From a virus: a stretch of DNA of 31,644 nt. Below, in pieces: positions 5,325 to 26,637 of the stretch. Under the pieces are notes generated by a model, which saw nothing but the letters and a program-made list of their open reading frames with translations, was not told the DNA's origin and searched no databases. Each line of letters begins with the position of its first letter. Position 1 is the stretch's first letter. The stretch covers positions 1-31,644 of IMG/VR virus record IMGVR_UViG_3300048121_000522. One strand, 5' to 3'. Position numbers and translations under genes: made by a program.

Positions 5325-5354
5325 GGTCGGGTCGAAAGCCCGACCTTTTTTTTT
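5325..5354 (+). terminator. Rho-independent terminator after SSB gene
   Basis: Stem GGTCGGG (5325-5331) / CCCGACC (5339-5345) with a 7-nt loop, followed by nine T (5346-5354). Its T-tract runs straight into the TATAATTG promoter-like element, so terminator and promoter share bases. Confidence 0.92.
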
Positions 5355-12885: not shown

Positions 12886-13462
12886 AAAAGTATCTATAGG
12901 TAAGGTACACCTATCTGCAAGCAATCCAAGAGTTATTAAGAACGATAAGTTCCGTAAGCTAGTAAACAGCATCAAGGAATTTCCGGAGATGCTCAAGGTA
13001 AGGCCTATTGTTGTTGACGACGAGATGACTGTTCTCGGAGGTAATATGAGACTGAGGGCTTGTTTGGAGGCTGGGCTCAAGGAGGTTCACATTATCAAGG
13101 CTTCCGAGTTCAGCGAGGAGCAGAAGAAGGAGTTCGTTATAAAGGACAACAGTTCGTTCGGAGAATGGGATTGGGACTTACTTGCTAACGAGTGGGAGAT
13201 TGAAGAATTGAGCGATTGGGGTTTGGACATACCGGCCTCGTACTTTGACGAGGACGTTGAGCCTGACTTTGATATGGACGAGCTTGACAAGGACCTCGAC
13301 ATCTATATCAATTCCAAGGTCAAGCAGATAACGCTGTACTTTGACAACCAACAGTACGAGTATGTACTCGCCAAGTTAGATGAGATTATGGAGGAGCGTC
13401 AGCTTGAAAGCAACACAGATGTAGTATTAGCCTTATTAGAAGAATATGAACCTCAAGCATAA
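12875..13462 (+). CDS. ParB/Srx-fold protein of DNA-modification cassette
   Basis: 195 aa. Residues 1 to about 95 form a ParB N-terminal-like domain: SASNPR (14-19), RPIVVDD (43-49) and VLGGNMRLRA (53-62), which corresponds to the nucleotide-binding GxxR box of ParB CTPases. The WDWDLLANEW segment (98-107) and WGLDIP (115-120) occur in ParB domains linked to phage and mobile-element DNA modification. Residues 145-190 form a small C-terminal domain (KQITLYFDNQQYE). There is no ParB helix-turn-helix centromere-binding domain, so plasmid partition is unlikely. In published surveys ParB domains accompany TET/JBP oxygenases and glycosyltransferases. It may guide or power the modification enzymes on DNA. 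Confidence 0.82.
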   Translation: MKTEKVSIGKVHLSASNPRVIKNDKFRKLVNSIKEFPEMLKVRPIVVDDEMTVLGGNMRLRACLEAGLKEVHIIKASEFSEEQKKEFVIKDNSSFGEWDWDLLANEWEIEELSDWGLDIPASYFDEDVEPDFDMDELDKDLDIYINSKVKQITLYFDNQQYEYVLAKLDEIMEERQLESNTDVVLALLEEYEPQA

Positions 13463-14177
13463 GTGGTTGGCCCTTGTACCAAGCAAGGGCAGACCGGAAG
13501 AATTTGCCAAGAGCTGTAAGCCATTACTTGATACGCTGCCGATTGACTCGGCAGTTCTTCTTGAACAAAGCGACTACGACAAGTATGACTACCCGAACAA
13601 GATTCTACTTGACAAAGAGAACCAAGGCATTGGGTACGCTATACACTTTGCAAGGGTATGGGCAGAGGAGAATGGCTATGACGTTATATTTAAGATAGAC
13701 GATGACGTAACCAAGATAGGAACCATACACGAGGACTTGGAAACTATTGACCGTTACCTATACAAATATGAGGACTTGGCCGGTGTGAGCTTCCCGTATT
13801 CTTTTGAATTTTACGACATTACCGAAAAAAAACTGTTCAGCCACATAAATAAACGGTTCCAAACTTGTTATATAATAAAGACAAAGTTCTTTCAAACGAC
13901 TACAAGGCTGAAGCAGATTGAGGATTTCTTCTATTATATGATGGCCATTAGGCAGAACGGTTGGGTACTTCGATGCAGCAAACACCCGATGCACACCGCA
14001 CCGGTGGGCAGCAATTCGGGTGGCGCTCAGATGTTTGACCGAGCAGCATTATATTTAGAGGACATAAAACTATTCAAAGAGATAGACCCTTCTATTGAGA
14101 TAATACACAAGCCGGATAAGAACTGGAAGTACGAGCCTAAACTTACCGACATAATGTACAAGTCAAAACCTATATGA
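13446..14177 (+). CDS. TET-associated-type GT-A glycosyltransferase
   Basis: 243 aa. The N-terminal strand and loop LALVPSKGRPE (8-18), ENQGIGYAIHFAR (58-70) and FKIDDDV (82-88, IDDD as the DXD-like metal site) give a GT-A fold nucleotide-sugar transferase. This arrangement and the immediate coupling to a TET/JBP gene match the TET-associated glycosyltransferase group. It is a second, different glycosyltransferase from the GT32-type gene at 12175, so the two could build a disaccharide or act on different substrates. It starts within the ParB-like gene (17-nt overlap) and its stop overlaps the dioxygenase start by ATGA. Confidence 0.83.
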   Translation: MNLKHKWLALVPSKGRPEEFAKSCKPLLDTLPIDSAVLLEQSDYDKYDYPNKILLDKENQGIGYAIHFARVWAEENGYDVIFKIDDDVTKIGTIHEDLETIDRYLYKYEDLAGVSFPYSFEFYDITEKKLFSHINKRFQTCYIIKTKFFQTTTRLKQIEDFFYYMMAIRQNGWVLRCSKHPMHTAPVGSNSGGAQMFDRAALYLEDIKLFKEIDPSIEIIHKPDKNWKYEPKLTDIMYKSKPI

Positions 14178-15073
14178 AAGAACTACACCTAACTCGTAAG
14201 GACATAGACATAGATAAATACAAGAAGCGCACGGCATTGCGCTCTGATGTATCTACCCTCATAAAAGAGGATGTGATTATTTATGTAGATAACCAACCGG
14301 TGTTGTTGTATAAGAAGCTCGAGGAAGATACCTCAGCCCTTCGCTGGGCCGTTAAAAATATCCAATACGCCACGGGGAAGCGTTCAAGGGGTTTGGTCTC
14401 TACAAGCGCTATATTTGGTTACTCGCCTCGCATAGCGATGCGCCACGATTATTGCACAGTAACGGCAATGGCTGTGAACCAAAAGAAACAGCACCACGTT
14501 ATTACTGAATTTGCCAAAGACCTCGTAGGATACTACAGAAAAAACTTCCCAGAACGCTATGAGTTCCACAACAAGTTAGTAGAAGAACGAGTAATGCAAG
14601 ATTGGACTATCGGAGGTAGTCCCTTCACATCGGGTATTGTAAACAAGAACAACCAACTGAACTATCACTATGACGCTGGAAACTTCAAAGGCGTATTATC
14701 CAATATGGTGGTATTCAAGAAAGACGTAGCAGGAGGGTATTTAGTAATACCCGAACTTGATATTGCACTAGAAGTAGCAGACAAGACACTAACTATATTC
14801 AACGGACAAGAAATACTACACGGAGTAAGCACCATAGAATACGACAACGAACACGCATATAGATATTCTGCCGTATATTACTCACTTGAGCAAATGTGGA
14901 AGTGCGAACCGTTAGATGATGAGATAGCAAGAATACGCAAGGTGAAAACCGAGCGTGAAAAGAAAAGGTTAGACCCTGAGCATCTTGATAGTCTACGAAA
15001 AAGAAAGGAACAACTGCAAGAACACAGCATAAAAGAGATGCTGACAAGCAAAAAGAAAAATGACAAAAACTGA
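14174..15073 (+). CDS. TET/JBP-family 2-oxoglutarate/Fe(II) DNA-base dioxygenase
   Basis: 299 aa. The dioxygenase core is visible: H165-Y-D167 for iron binding in NYHYDAGN, GGYLVIPEL (187-195) as the strand before the distal loop, H216 in EILHGV as the third iron ligand, and R230 in HAYRYS as the 2-oxoglutarate-binding arginine. Residues 70-96 (GLVSTSAIFGYSPR then RHDYC) resemble the region N-terminal to the core in phage TET/JBP proteins. Such enzymes oxidise the methyl group of 5-methylcytosine, or of thymine in JBP, in DNA. Residues 245-299 are a charged helix. Coupled to two glycosyltransferases and a ParB-like gene, it should create hydroxymethylated bases that are then glycosylated. It overlaps the terminase small-subunit gene by 14 nt. 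Confidence 0.85.
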   Translation: MKELHLTRKDIDIDKYKKRTALRSDVSTLIKEDVIIYVDNQPVLLYKKLEEDTSALRWAVKNIQYATGKRSRGLVSTSAIFGYSPRIAMRHDYCTVTAMAVNQKKQHHVITEFAKDLVGYYRKNFPERYEFHNKLVEERVMQDWTIGGSPFTSGIVNKNNQLNYHYDAGNFKGVLSNMVVFKKDVAGGYLVIPELDIALEVADKTLTIFNGQEILHGVSTIEYDNEHAYRYSAVYYSLEQMWKCEPLDDEIARIRKVKTEREKKRLDPEHLDSLRKRKEQLQEHSIKEMLTSKKKNDKN

Positions 15074-15407
15074 CATAAGTAAAAAGGCAATGCTCAAAGC
15101 ACTTGAGAAGTCTCTAGGGGTGGTTACCAGCGCTTGTAAGAGCGTTGGAATATCAAGGGAAACACATTATAAGTGGCTACGAGAGGACGAGGCTTATAGA
15201 GGTGCAGTATCTGACTTTGAGAATGTAGCTTTGGACTTTGCAGAATCACAACTGCATCAGCAGATAAAAAAGGGAATACCTACGTCAACGATATTCTACC
15301 TCAAGACGAAAGGAAAGAGTCGTGGTTATGTTGAGCGTCAAGAAATCCAACACGACGGAGGCGAAGGCCTACGCATTGAGATTATAGATGGCAACACTTC
15401 AGACTAA
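15060..15407 (+). CDS. terS: Terminase small subunit
   Basis: 115 aa. Residues 8-40 form a helix-turn-helix (KAMLKALEKSLGVVTSACKSVGISRETHYKWL) like the DNA-recognition domain of small terminases. A helical oligomerisation segment (about 48-75) and a polar tail follow. It directly precedes and overlaps by 20 nt the large-subunit gene, which is the normal order. Its role is to recognise phage DNA for packaging. Its start lies inside the dioxygenase gene, so packaging and modification genes are on one transcript. Confidence 0.85.
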   Translation: MTKTDISKKAMLKALEKSLGVVTSACKSVGISRETHYKWLREDEAYRGAVSDFENVALDFAESQLHQQIKKGIPTSTIFYLKTKGKSRGYVERQEIQHDGGEGLRIEIIDGNTSD

Positions 15408-16551
15408 TGTTGTATTTAGACACCTACAAAACAGCGAGAGTAGGATAGTTGTAGAGCAAGGCGGTACACGTTCCGGCAAAACCTACAATATCCTTATATG
15501 GCTTATGACCTATTGCCTTGCACCGGAGAACAACGGTCAAGTAATAACGATATGTCGTAAAACCTTTCCGGCTGTCCGTGCTTCCGTGATGCGTGACTTC
15601 TTTGAGATACTTGAACGTGCCGGTCAGTACAACCCCGATAGCCACAACAAGAGTAGCAGCGAGTATTATCTTGGTGGGAATATGATTGAGTTCATATCCC
15701 TTGACCAACCTCAAAAGGTACGTGGTAGAAAGCGTGATTTGCTTTATATAAACGAGGCCAACGAGTTGCACTTTGAGGACTGGCAGCAGCTTATTATGCG
15801 TACCTCTGGTCGCATTGTTATTGACTACAACCCTTCGGACGAGTATCATTGGATATACGATAGAGTGATACCAAGAGATGATGCAGAGTTCTACAAGACT
15901 ACATACCTTGACAACCCGTTCCTATCTACGGCTATCATATCAGAGATTGAGAGGCTACGTCAAACGGACGATAACTATTGGCAAGTGTATGGCCTCGGTG
16001 AACGAGGACAAAGCAAGTCGGTAATCTTTACCCATCAAGAAGTAGAGAAGATACCGGAAGGTGCATCGCTTATTGCAGCAGGGATGGACTTTGGGTTTAC
16101 GAATGACCCCACTACTTTGGTGGTTGCCTATCGCAAGGACATAGACTTGTACTTTGAGGAGCTTGTATATGAAACGGGATTAACAAACCGAGATATACAC
16201 AAGAGGCTGCAGTCGCTTGGCTTCGACAAGCGTACTGAGATATTCGGAGATAGTGCCGAGCCGAAGTCTATCAAGGAGCTTCAGCTTTTTGGTTGGAACA
16301 TAAAGCCAACAGCCAAAGGTAAGGATAGCGTTATGGCTGGTATTGATATGCTGAAACGATATAGGCTGAACGTAACCAAGTCAAGCACAAACTTGATTAA
16401 GGAACTAAGAAACTATAAATTCGTAGAGGACTATAACGGCAAGGTACTGAACAAGCCGGTAGATGCTTTTAACCACGCCATAGATGCTGTGAGGTATGCT
16501 ACATACAATAGAATGAGCAGACCAAACTACGGAAGGTACGCAGTAAGGTAA
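15388..16551 (+). CDS. terL: Terminase large subunit
   Basis: 387 aa, Terminase_3-like packaging motor. The ATPase half has Walker A GGTRSGKT (25-32) and Walker B LLYINEA (118-124) with E123 catalytic. The nuclease half has GMDFGFTNDP (232-241) with D234, FGDSAEP (286-292) with D288, and NHAIDAVRY (362-370) with D366, forming the RNase-H-like metal site. Length is on the short side of the family. The gene is followed after 15 nt by the tail-chaperone gene rather than by the portal, which is an unusual order. The assignment is firm; whether packaging is headful (pac) cannot be judged from sequence alone, although the circular assembly hints at it. Confidence 0.96.
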   Translation: MATLQTNVVFRHLQNSESRIVVEQGGTRSGKTYNILIWLMTYCLAPENNGQVITICRKTFPAVRASVMRDFFEILERAGQYNPDSHNKSSSEYYLGGNMIEFISLDQPQKVRGRKRDLLYINEANELHFEDWQQLIMRTSGRIVIDYNPSDEYHWIYDRVIPRDDAEFYKTTYLDNPFLSTAIISEIERLRQTDDNYWQVYGLGERGQSKSVIFTHQEVEKIPEGASLIAAGMDFGFTNDPTTLVVAYRKDIDLYFEELVYETGLTNRDIHKRLQSLGFDKRTEIFGDSAEPKSIKELQLFGWNIKPTAKGKDSVMAGIDMLKRYRLNVTKSSTNLIKELRNYKFVEDYNGKVLNKPVDAFNHAIDAVRYATYNRMSRPNYGRYAVR

Positions 16552-16566
16552 AATCGTTATTTAGAT

Positions 16567-17235
16567 ATGGATATAGACATTGTTGTTCCGGAAGGCCTAC
16601 AAGATATTACACTTGAACAATATCAGAGGTTCCTCGCATTGAAGAGCGAGGACGAAACCTTTCTATCGCAAAAAGCGGTAGAGATATTCTGCCACGTTCC
16701 GTTAGTGCTTGTAGATAGAATGCCGTACAATACAGTCCAGCGCCTTGCTAAGCGTGTCTTTAGTTATTTCGAGGGGAAGCCTTCGCTGATAATGAAAAAG
16801 GCGCTTAAAAAGCGTTTGTTTGGCTTTGTGCCTAACCTAGAAGAAATAACCCTTGGGGAGTATGTTGACCTTGATGCCAACATAGCTGATTGGAAGAATA
16901 TGCACCGAGCAATGGCTGTACTCTATCGGCCCGTTGTAACGGAAGCCGATGAGTACTATGACATAGAGGAGTATGACGGTACAAACAAGTATGCGGAAAC
17001 TATGAAGGAGATGCCGCTTGACGTAGTGCTTGGAGCGCTGGTTTTTTTTTATCGTTTAGGAATCGACTTGTCGATAGCTATGACAGCTTATTTGGAGGAG
17101 GACAAGAAGCTGACCTCTCATCAGAAGCCAACTTCGGAAGAAAGTGGGGGTGGTACGGAAGTTTTTATCAACTCGCTCAAGGAGACCCTACAAGGTTTGA
17201 AGCAGTTAGCCGACTCGCCATTCACAGCGCTATGA
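16567..17235 (+). CDS. Tail assembly chaperone, frame-0 product (gpG-like), 222 aa
   Basis: 222 aa. The N-terminal half is helical and acidic, with TLGEYVDLDANIADW (95-109) and HRAMAVLYRP (113-122). The MPLDVVLGALVFFYRLG block (149-165) is a segment I recognise from Bacteroidota phage proteins near tail genes. A T9 tract at 17042-17050 places the heptamer T-TTT-TTT in frame. From 17022 the -1 frame is open to 17294, giving a product that adds the FGRKWGWYGSFYQLA block. This is the arrangement of lambda-type G and GT tail chaperones, which wrap tail tubes and tape measure during assembly. The unshifted product ends at 17235 with ETLQGLKQLADSPFTAL. Confidence 0.78.
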   Translation: MDIDIVVPEGLQDITLEQYQRFLALKSEDETFLSQKAVEIFCHVPLVLVDRMPYNTVQRLAKRVFSYFEGKPSLIMKKALKKRLFGFVPNLEEITLGEYVDLDANIADWKNMHRAMAVLYRPVVTEADEYYDIEEYDGTNKYAETMKEMPLDVVLGALVFFYRLGIDLSIAMTAYLEEDKKLTSHQKPTSEESGGGTEVFINSLKETLQGLKQLADSPFTAL

Positions 17236-17294
17236 TGTACCTTGAATTTGAGAAAGAAAAGACAGAACTAGAACGTAAAATGATTAAAAAATGA
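17049..17294 (+). CDS. Probable -1 frameshift extension of tail chaperone (gpGT-like)
   Basis: Reading on after a -1 slip at T-TTT-TTT (17043-17049) gives 81 further residues, for a 242-aa fusion. The extension contains NFGRKWGWYGSFYQLA and ends MMYLEFEKEKTELERKMIKK. The WGWYxSxYxLA and YLxFEKEK blocks are recognisable from separately annotated Bacteroidota phage tail proteins. Only the last 21 codons (17232-17294) could be read as a separate ORF with its own ATG, overlapping the gene on each side by ATGA. The slip site is inferred, since the -1 frame is open from 17022. Transcript slippage on T9 is an alternative to ribosomal frameshifting, and an assembly homopolymer error must be excluded. 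Confidence 0.72.
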   Translation, partial: LSFRNRLVDSYDSLFGGGQEADLSSEANFGRKWGWYGSFYQLAQGDPTRFEAVSRLAIHSAMMYLEFEKEKTELERKMIKK

Positions 17295-17758
17295 CGGGTT
17301 ACTACGACATATTAGAAAAGCTACGGGTATCGCTGGAAGCGAACCCTAGCGTGAACACTGTAACGGAAGGCGACTTGCTTGAGGTAGACTTATCAAAGCA
17401 GACTATCTTTCCCTTGTCGCACATTATTGTGCAGAACGCTACATTCGCAGAGCGCACGATAACCTTCAACCTCAATATCTTGTTTATAGACATTGTGGAC
17501 TTCAACAAGGACGACCCGAAGGCAGATATACCTTTCCGTGGCAACAACAACGAGCAAGATGTTCTCAACACAATGCTTCAAGTAGCCAACAAGTTATGGA
17601 GCGACCTATCAAGGGGCGACCTATATACGGACAAATACCAAATAAACGGTACACCTTCAGCAGAACCGTTCGTAGACCGGTTCGATAACCAAGTAGCTGG
17701 GTGGGACTTGACTCTATCTATATCAATACCAAATTCAGAAATTAGTGTTTGCGTTTGA
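17291..17758 (+). CDS. Putative tail terminator / tail completion protein, 155 aa
   Basis: 155 aa with alternating beta-strands and a helix (NEQDVLNTMLQVANKLWSDL, about 87-106). The N-terminus YYDILEKLRVSLEANPSVNTVTEG fits the first helix and strand of tail-terminator folds, as does a final beta-strand (GWDLTLSISIP). It overlaps the frameshifted chaperone reading frame by ATGA. Structural role inferred from fold-like pattern and position among tail genes. Confidence 0.6.
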   Translation: MTGYYDILEKLRVSLEANPSVNTVTEGDLLEVDLSKQTIFPLSHIIVQNATFAERTITFNLNILFIDIVDFNKDDPKADIPFRGNNNEQDVLNTMLQVANKLWSDLSRGDLYTDKYQINGTPSAEPFVDRFDNQVAGWDLTLSISIPNSEISVCV

Positions 17759-21627: not shown

Positions 21628-21765
21628 ATGAGTTACTTACGTTATTTGATAGAAACCCTTCCGGAGGTTGAGGCGAAAACAGACAATATAGCGATAGCCA
21701 AAGGCCGTTATCAAGAGCCTAAAAACTGGAAGCATTACCTAAAGAAACTGAAGAATGGCCATTAA
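21628..21765 (+). CDS. Small protein before tape measure, 45 aa
   Basis: 45 aa, basic C-terminus with lysines (KNWKHYLKKLKNGH). It begins 3 nt after the 682-aa gene and overlaps the tape-measure start by 11 nt. No family is recognised. Confidence 0.6.
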   Translation: MSYLRYLIETLPEVEAKTDNIAIAKGRYQEPKNWKHYLKKLKNGH

Positions 21766-23665
21766 GGAAACCGTACAGATTGACGTAGAAACTAATGCGG
21801 ACAAGACGGCAGACGACCTAACGTCTGCGGTAAGAGACTTGCAGAAGGCTATTGAAGCAATGACCGGTTCTATGAATGATGGCTTTTCAGAGGCCAACAA
21901 CAACATAAACAAGGTTGACGAGGGTGTACAAGATATAGGCACAAGCGCAAAGAACAGTGAGAAAGGAGTAAAGACACTTTCCACCGGCTTTAGAGGTATG
22001 GGAGCTGCTATGAAAGCAGCCGGTATCGGCCTTGTAATAGAGGGCTTAAATATCCTTAAAAAGCTTCTTGGTGAAAACCAAGTTGTAGTTGATGCTTTCA
22101 ACACAGCGTTTGAGTTTGTTTCTATTGCCTTTAACGACTTTGTAAACTTCATTCTTGCTAACTCAGAAGCAGTAACCGGCTTCTTCAAGGGTATTTTTGA
22201 GGACCCAAAACAAGCGTTGCTTGATTTTGCTGATGCATTCAAGAGAAACATACAAGAGCGTTTTGAATCATATCTTGATACGCTCGGTTATTTAGCGAGT
22301 GCCGTTAAAAAGGTGTTTAGCGGAGACTTTGCCGGTGCTTTGGAAGATGTAAAATCAGCCGGTAAAGAGTCGCTTGACGTTCTTACTGGTGTTAACAACA
22401 CCTTTGACAAGGGCAAGGAAGCCATAAGCAAGGTTGCTACGGCAACCAAAGACTATGTGGTTCAAACGGGCAAAGCTGCAAAAGAAACTGTTGAGCTTAA
22501 CAAACAAGCCGAGTTATCAGATGCTATACGTCAAGGGTTGCTTGAAAAGTACGACTTGGAAGCAGAGAAACTGCGCCAAGTGCGAGACGATGAGCGTGTA
22601 ACAATATCCGAACGTATAAAAGCCAACGAGGACCTCGGTGCTGTGCTTGACAAGCAAGAGAAAGAAATGATGGCTGCAGCCAACTTGAGGCTTGTTGCCG
22701 CCGAGCGTGAGGCTGCGAAGAAAAAGGGCAACCTTGAGGCTGAAAAGGCCCTTATAGAAGCAAGGAACGAGGTTGCTGGTGTAGAAGCGCAAATCGCTGG
22801 GCTTCGCTCAGAGCAATTAACCAATGAGGCTTCTTTGCAGCGTGAGCTTGTTGAAATTGAGAACGGCAAAAAGGAAGCTGCGATTGAGGCCAACGAGATT
22901 GAGAAACAAGCAGCTATTGAAAAGGAGATAGACGTACTTAAGCGACTACAACTAGAGAAAGAATTAGCCGAGGAAACTAAAGTAGCAAGGCTTGACATTA
23001 TAGAGAGTGAACTTGCCAGCGTCAAGGAAGGTACTGCACGATACCAAGAACTATTGAATGAGAAGCTGCTCCTTGAAAAGGAAGCAGCCGCAGAAAGCAA
23101 GAGGATAGAAAGAGAAACGGAAGAAGAAAAGCTGCGCATAAGAGAAGAAAGCAACAAGGCTGTATTTGCTATGACTATGCAAGGCCTTGAGGCTGTATCT
23201 GCGCTTACGGAAGCGTTCGCTGGACAAAGCGAAGCGCAACAGCGTAGAGCATTCCAAGTGCAAAAGGCTTTATCAGCAGCAAGTACAGTAATGAGTACGA
23301 TTGAGGGTGCACAAAGTGCCTTCACAACAGCAAATAAATCACCTATTACTGCAGTATTCCCAGCTTATCCGTATATTCAAGCCGGACTTGCTACGGCTTT
23401 TGGTATTGCAAAGCTGCAGCAGATACGCACACAGCAGTTCTCACCGGATGGTTCGCCTTCTCCGCCAAGCACCTCAACGGGTGCACCGGCATCGGCTACT
23501 TCAGCACGTTCTTTTAGTCCGGACGTGAATGTTGTAGGAGCAAGTGGGGTTAATGTTCTTGCTGAAAGCATAAGTGGCCGTCCCGTGAAGGCCTATGTAG
23601 TAGGAGGCGATGTATCGACACAACAAGAATTAGATAGAAAACGAGTTAAAAACGCAACGGTGTGA
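21755..23665 (+). CDS. Tail tape measure protein
   Basis: 636 aa, almost wholly helical. There is a hydrophobic segment near residues 85-110 (FRGMGAAMKAAGIGLVIEG), a common tape-measure feature, and long Ala/Glu/Lys coiled coils from about 240 to 480. The C-terminal 100 residues become Pro/Ser/Thr-rich and then end RKRVKN. With the usual 1.5 angstrom rise per residue, a helix this long would imply a tail of roughly 90-100 nm. It is preceded by tail-tip genes and followed by the protease gene, which is not the canonical order. Its stop overlaps a GTG start. Confidence 0.85.
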   Translation: MAIKETVQIDVETNADKTADDLTSAVRDLQKAIEAMTGSMNDGFSEANNNINKVDEGVQDIGTSAKNSEKGVKTLSTGFRGMGAAMKAAGIGLVIEGLNILKKLLGENQVVVDAFNTAFEFVSIAFNDFVNFILANSEAVTGFFKGIFEDPKQALLDFADAFKRNIQERFESYLDTLGYLASAVKKVFSGDFAGALEDVKSAGKESLDVLTGVNNTFDKGKEAISKVATATKDYVVQTGKAAKETVELNKQAELSDAIRQGLLEKYDLEAEKLRQVRDDERVTISERIKANEDLGAVLDKQEKEMMAAANLRLVAAEREAAKKKGNLEAEKALIEARNEVAGVEAQIAGLRSEQLTNEASLQRELVEIENGKKEAAIEANEIEKQAAIEKEIDVLKRLQLEKELAEETKVARLDIIESELASVKEGTARYQELLNEKLLLEKEAAAESKRIERETEEEKLRIREESNKAVFAMTMQGLEAVSALTEAFAGQSEAQQRRAFQVQKALSAASTVMSTIEGAQSAFTTANKSPITAVFPAYPYIQAGLATAFGIAKLQQIRTQQFSPDGSPSPPSTSTGAPASATSARSFSPDVNVVGASGVNVLAESISGRPVKAYVVGGDVSTQQELDRKRVKNATV

Positions 23666-26603: not shown

Positions 26604-26637
26604 AGGGTAGGTGGGTGCAATCTGCCTACCCTTTTTT
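26604..26637 (+). terminator. Rho-independent terminator after major capsid gene
   Basis: Stem GGGTAGG (26605-26611) / CCTACCC (26625-26631) with a 13-nt loop, followed by six T (26632-26637). It lies 27 nt after the capsid stop. Confidence 0.9.

Follow-up and report, generated by a model that had tools for sequence, protein, structure and literature searches.

A conserved T9 run at which a phage gene forks into two predicted tail-assembly chaperones, probably through transcriptional slippage

Introduction

The G/GT chaperones of phage tail assembly are a standard example of ribosomal frameshifting. Precedents for a ribosomal slip in genes of this kind have been described in lambda (PMC5009743), in P2, where it takes place at TTTTTTG without a downstream structure (PMC3091744), and in two chaperone genes of HK97 type, which display 6-7% frameshifting (PMC3711429).

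Slippage by RNA polymerase offers a second way of joining two frames. Bacterial RNA polymerase, which holds a hybrid of 9-10 bp, slips efficiently in vivo on nine As or Ts (PMC5009743), and on A/T runs single-base insertions prevail (PMC5574713). The E. coli enzyme is biased toward poly(T) and slips detectably from seven Ts on, so that nine Ts are not a sharp limit; the mxiE gene uses a run of nine (PMC6260861). In the open-access papers searched, no account was found of transcriptional slippage in a tail chaperone, nor of the frame fork in the phage family considered here.

The window analyzed in this work, 31,644 bases long, spans an IMG/VR virus record from end to end. One of its genes is proposed to give rise to two chaperones through a fork at a T9 run, with the slip most likely occurring during transcription, and the probability of this explanation as a whole is put at roughly 0.58. 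As envisaged, one gene would supply two tail-assembly chaperones with a common N-terminal part of 161 aa. Plain reading would give the shorter product, G (222 aa), while slippage at the T9 run would give GT (242 aa), in which a T domain encoded in the -1 frame takes the place of the G tail. RNA polymerase would add one U at the nine-T run, such that a fraction of the mRNAs carries U10, and plain translation of these mRNAs would run on in the T frame. If the parallel with lambda holds, the tape measure protein would be coated by G, while recruitment of the major tail protein would fall to GT.

Results

The features of the locus are collected in Table 1. Around the T run, the codons of the 0 frame are GTT TTT TTT TAT CGT TTA and those of the -1 frame are GGT TTT TTT TTA TCG TTT AGG. 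The predicted GT has the junction ...GALV-FF-LSFRNRL... and a total length of 242 aa, and the polymerase and the ribosome would produce the identical protein, so that protein data alone cannot separate the two mechanisms. The -1 frame is open from 17022 to 17294 and holds the blocks WGWYGSFYQLA and YLEFEKEK, and the sole piece of it that starts with ATG is 20 aa long (17232-17294). The initial annotation had reported this frame and its blocks, the T9 run with an in-frame T-TTT-TTT, the 20-aa piece as the only one of its kind and the 4-nt overlap with the next gene, and all of these coordinates are right, the heptamer being in phase with the ATG at 16567. The overlap between the -1 stop and the next start (ATGA in the window) is found in 104 of 116 clusters of relatives. 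Conceivably, it could couple translation of the T frame to that of the next gene.

Table 1. Positions of the forked gene, its parts and selected neighbors in the window
Feature	Position	Strand	Remarks
Terminase large subunit	15388..16551	+	Directly upstream of the 0-frame ORF
0-frame ORF, G-like product, 222 aa	16567..17235	+	Match to phrog_32199 (unknown function), E 2.5e-16
Parts of the 0-frame ORF	within 16567..17235	+	N domain, aa ~1-161, then a 61-aa 0-frame tail
T9 run, putative slippage site	17042..17050	+	Never fewer than nine Ts in relatives
T_TTT_TTT heptamer inside the T9 run	17043..17049	+	In phase with the ORF whose ATG is at 16567
-1-frame T domain	17049..17294	+	Fused to 16567-17049, predicted 242-aa GT
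Two-frame overlap	17051..17235	+	Apparent selection on both frames
Next gene, phrog_30964 (unknown function)	17291..17758	+	4-nt overlap of its start with the -1 stop
Helical 636-aa virion protein, probable tape measure	21755..23665	+	phrog_21537 virion structural protein, E 7.7e-18

The gene order in this part of the window comprises the small and large terminase subunits, the forked gene, four genes of unknown function, the 636-aa virion protein, a protease, genes that likely encode a capsid protein and a major tail protein (the latter near 26615), and a portal gene. The capsid, major tail and tape measure assignments are putative. The forked gene is thus situated in the structural module, after the terminase and upstream of the tape-measure-like gene, with the likely major tail gene elsewhere. 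Upstream, at 13446-15073, a TET-associated glycosyltransferase (PF20691) adjoins a TET/JBP-type 2OG oxygenase (PF12851), which is likely a pair for DNA base hypermodification.

Structures were predicted from alignments that left out the P12024S row. The AlphaFold model of the 222-aa product (mean pLDDT 87.8) has a confident N domain, a long helix that runs through the slip point and a less certain 0-frame tail, and the model of the T domain is helical (mean pLDDT 85.2). Searches of Pfam, PDB sequences and PDB folds gave no identification, and such a missing match excludes nothing. A fold search of BFVD returned mostly uncharacterised phage proteins; three of the matches, all weak, bear the name tail assembly chaperone (E 0.07, 1.1 and 1.7). 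The two-product architecture, in which one start serves both products and the longer one acquires a C-terminal domain from the -1 frame, is kept in 311 readable relatives, as read from sequence alone. From this architecture, the gene position and the weak fold matches, rather than from any curated family, we infer that the gene is best read as encoding a G/GT-type tail chaperone. A remote fold match was also noted to gp10 of Flavobacterium phage 6H (L322, 10000-10930, minus strand), which has no T9; it is followed by a long open stretch in another frame that ends in ATGA at the next gene.

A search with the -1-frame protein found 334 encoding stretches in viral contigs. Eighty of these were kept, and in all 80 the 0-frame N domain is followed, across T9 or T10, by a T domain in the -1 frame. 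Additional contig scans enlarged the -1-domain set to 318 loci, representing 269 distinct 400-nt contexts, and in these the junction was located with an HMM that omits the slip codons, so that the T run itself was not selected for. All 318 loci have a run at the junction, T9 in 276 and T10 in 42, and at none of the 318 junctions placed by this HMM is there a run of seven or eight Ts or an interrupted run. The N domain is readable in the 0 frame and in -1 relation to the T domain at 311 of the 318 loci, which form 125 clusters at <80% identity, 57 at <60% and 27 at <50%. A separate scan by the N domain only gave at least nine Ts at 80 of 80 loci, one of which (L329) has an extra frame break downstream. 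Conservation at the T9 fork is far beyond chance. The comparison of both frames across relatives, which the initial annotation had proposed as a check, bears out the -1 relation in the 311 readable relatives and also reveals selection on the 0-frame tail, a point that the annotation had missed. Where it had allowed for an unconserved -1 frame or one continuous ORF, the -1 frame proves conserved, and the same frame relation recurs in hundreds of independent assemblies.

The family includes the cultured Nonlabens phages P12024S and P12024L, whose N domain is ~26% identical; the T9 recurs in P12024S, where the annotation shows two hypothetical genes (38 and 39) at this position. Among 395 genomes sampled from one phylum, that of the query, a single one had a prophage relative, and genome contigs gave four matches; the family looks to consist mainly of free phages. 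An uncultured Dysgonomonas contig (L166) holds a divergent copy, in which T9 is shifted by one codon position and the 0-frame tail is 86 codons long.

In most lineages, the junction has the layout xTT TTT TTT Txx. A shifted layout, xxT TTT TTT TTx, is found at six loci from five clusters; here the 5′ T is gone, an additional T is present on the 3′ side, and a Gly, Ser or Tyr codon stands ahead of the two Phe codons. The extra 3′ T occurs in 5 of the 5 clusters without the 5′ T versus 22 of the 120 others (Fisher p 3.4e-4; 125 clusters at 80%), and the association is also seen with clustering at 60% (p 6.0e-5) and at 50% (3/3 versus 2/24; p ~0.003, calculated by hand). Both junction Phe codons are always TTT, and the share of TTT among the Phe codons of the same N domains is 74%. 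Within the other ORFs of the same contigs, runs of at least nine Ts number 0 versus 8.7 expected under synonymous shuffling, and T8 runs number 3 versus 13.4 expected. The window has three other T9 runs (4265, 5346 and 6450), all of them between main genes. Judging from these patterns, the feature that is kept appears to be a run length of at least nine, beyond the heptamer alone. As a separate observation, positions 5325-5354 carry a perfect GC-rich hairpin followed by T9 in an intergenic gap (GGTCGGG...CCCGACC TTTTTTTTT), a textbook intrinsic terminator.

A classical programmed -1 ribosomal frameshift at T_TTT_TTT, in which two tRNA-Phe would move back by a single nucleotide in a few percent of translation events to give the same GT, is a possible account of the fork, though one that we rather doubt. 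The heptamer is in phase in all relatives, and the ribosomal route is always available as well, since any T9 contains an in-phase T_TTT_TTT. Seven Ts would suffice for such a slip, whereas all relatives have nine or more; moreover, there is no ribosomal reason for the compensating 3′ T, and U_UUU_UUU is a weak site in E. coli. A conserved stimulator is likewise lacking. Single-sequence folding gave no family-wide downstream pseudoknot or stem-loop (mean z -0.19 and -0.25), RNAalifold gave no conserved structure across 98 clusters, a small hairpin (ATCGACTTGTCGAT) is limited to close relatives, and Shine-Dalgarno-like tetramers occur in merely 17 of 125 clusters. Among the hallmarks of a -1 frameshift site, an in-phase X_XXY_YYZ heptamer is thus present and stimulators, which are not required in every case, are absent.

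The 0 frame does not end at the fork, and in the window it runs for 61 codons beyond the T run. Across the family, it stays open after the slip for a median of 57 codons versus ~12 under synonymous reshuffling of the -1 frame (mean per-lineage P 0.03). At fourfold sites of the -1 frame, the share of differing comparisons inside the overlap is 16% in the first 12 codons and 30% in the rest, and outside the overlap this share rises to 44% past the 0-frame stop and to 58% across the N domain. In distant pairs, the 0-frame residues are more alike than the -1 constraint by itself predicts in all three sections tested, a result used for its direction alone, as its z-scores are inflated by shared ancestry. 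The 0-frame tail itself appears from these patterns to be under selection, such that the gene forks into two overlapping C-termini. Given the open 0 frame, the reduced fourfold change and the 0-frame likeness, both tails therefore seem to be products, one belonging to G and the other to GT. The third (+1) frame has a stop 2-3 codons past the run (17051-17060 in the window) in 116 of 125 clusters. Transcripts with U8 or U11 would yield a truncated G with no junk tail; the +1 stop may merely follow from dual coding.

It is very improbable that the T domain is expressed unfused, as an independent gene from a start codon of its own. P12024S has an ATG at the 0-frame stop, which opens a 55-aa T piece annotated as a gene. 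However, the WxWY core is without a preceding ATG in 116 of 125 clusters and without any ATG, GTG or TTG in 64 of 125, and an independent start was rejected for most lineages on account of these too few start codons. In addition, conservation of the -1 frame sets in at the slip itself (FFLSFR), the frame opens at most five codons ahead of the slip in 19 of 125 clusters, and the window offers only the 20-aa piece mentioned above.

Least credible is the idea of one truly continuous ORF whose T run was altered by assembly error, mutation or phase variation. Homopolymers are generally error-prone, but every readable relative has the same -1 relation, with T9 or T10 at 318 of 318 loci, the changes from T9 to T10 are substitutions rather than indels because the frame is kept, and the 0-frame tail is under selection; for the family, sequencing error and phase variation are thereby refuted. 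One-frame versions may exist in distant phages, where several BFVD proteins of 226-267 aa (A0A516L611, A0A516L5A8, A0A6J5SVK3, A0A6J5N0W0 and A0A6J7WJY4) match both the G and the T models and are possibly one-frame G-T fusions. No such fusion was found in the contig scans by the N domain.

Discussion

Direct support was obtained here for the way in which the two frames relate, for the conservation of this relation, for the rule on run length and for selection on the two overlapping tails. Polymerase as the agent of the slip, the proportion of the two products and their function as chaperones are inferred. Slippage by RNA polymerase is favored as the mechanism, and is reasonably probable, because of the length rule, the avoidance of runs of at least nine Ts elsewhere, the lack of a conserved stimulator and the published behavior of the polymerase. 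The locus also has the sequence feature expected of a programmed transcriptional slippage site, namely a kept, uninterrupted run of at least nine Ts that joins two conserved frames. For the phage family as a whole, whose relatives are in Bacteroidota, the balance leans slightly toward a tail-chaperone ratio set by polymerase slippage, with the run held at the length of the RNA:DNA hybrid and with two selected, overlapping C-termini.

Several points run counter to polymerase slippage. Protein constraint explains part of the run, in that the residue before it is in most cases Val, Leu, Ile or Phe and a Leu is generally required next in the -1 frame, and the shifted run is found in 3-5 independent lineages only. 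Furthermore, the well-studied tail chaperones use ribosomal frameshifting.

Two proposals of the initial annotation are retained in part. Its slippery site at T-TTT-TTT stands as an in-phase heptamer, but the kept run of at least nine Ts points to RNA polymerase rather than to the ribosome. Its lambda-type G/GT chaperone in a Bacteroidota phage agrees with the G/GT-like architecture and with relatives in Bacteroidota, but finds no match to a curated chaperone family.

If the preferred reading is true, the locus would achieve by transcription what the lambda G/GT switch achieves by way of the ribosome, and polymerase slippage would mean that the conserved thing is the ratio of two products and not the machine that makes it. 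The selected 0-frame tail would imply that the products differ by two evolved C-termini. For annotation, a T9 located behind the terminase gene can serve as a marker; the T domain is missed or mis-annotated in relatives, as in P12024S, where it figures as a separate hypothetical gene.

The described systems resemble this locus in different respects. Genes 38 and 39 of P12024S are homologous to it (26% identity in the N domain), with T9 in the same place, a T domain in the -1 frame and a position directly after the terminase. In that phage, however, the products are annotated as two hypothetical proteins, the 0-frame tail is shorter, with 25 codons, and an ATG is present for the T piece. With lambda G/GT, the locus shares two products from one start in -1 relation, a T domain that occurs solely as a fusion and a tape-measure-like gene downstream. 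Lambda differs in that its slip is ribosomal and takes place at G_GGA_AAG near the end of G, whereas the present gene has a T9 run, a long and apparently selected 0-frame tail and a place right after the terminase, and no sequence homology was detected between the two. The P2 E/E+E′ pair likewise has a T-rich site, a -1 frame and no downstream structure (PMC3091744), but its site is T6G, described as one of translational frameshifting, in contrast to at least nine uninterrupted Ts here, and again no homology was detected. In Shigella mxiE, a T9 run joins two overlapping frames and one added U leads to the longer product; mxiE is a bacterial regulator gene for an unrelated protein, and its slippage has been shown experimentally, whereas slippage in the phage gene is proposed. 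In its products, the phage gene would work as lambda G/GT or P2 E/E+E′ do, and in its slip site as Shigella mxiE does.
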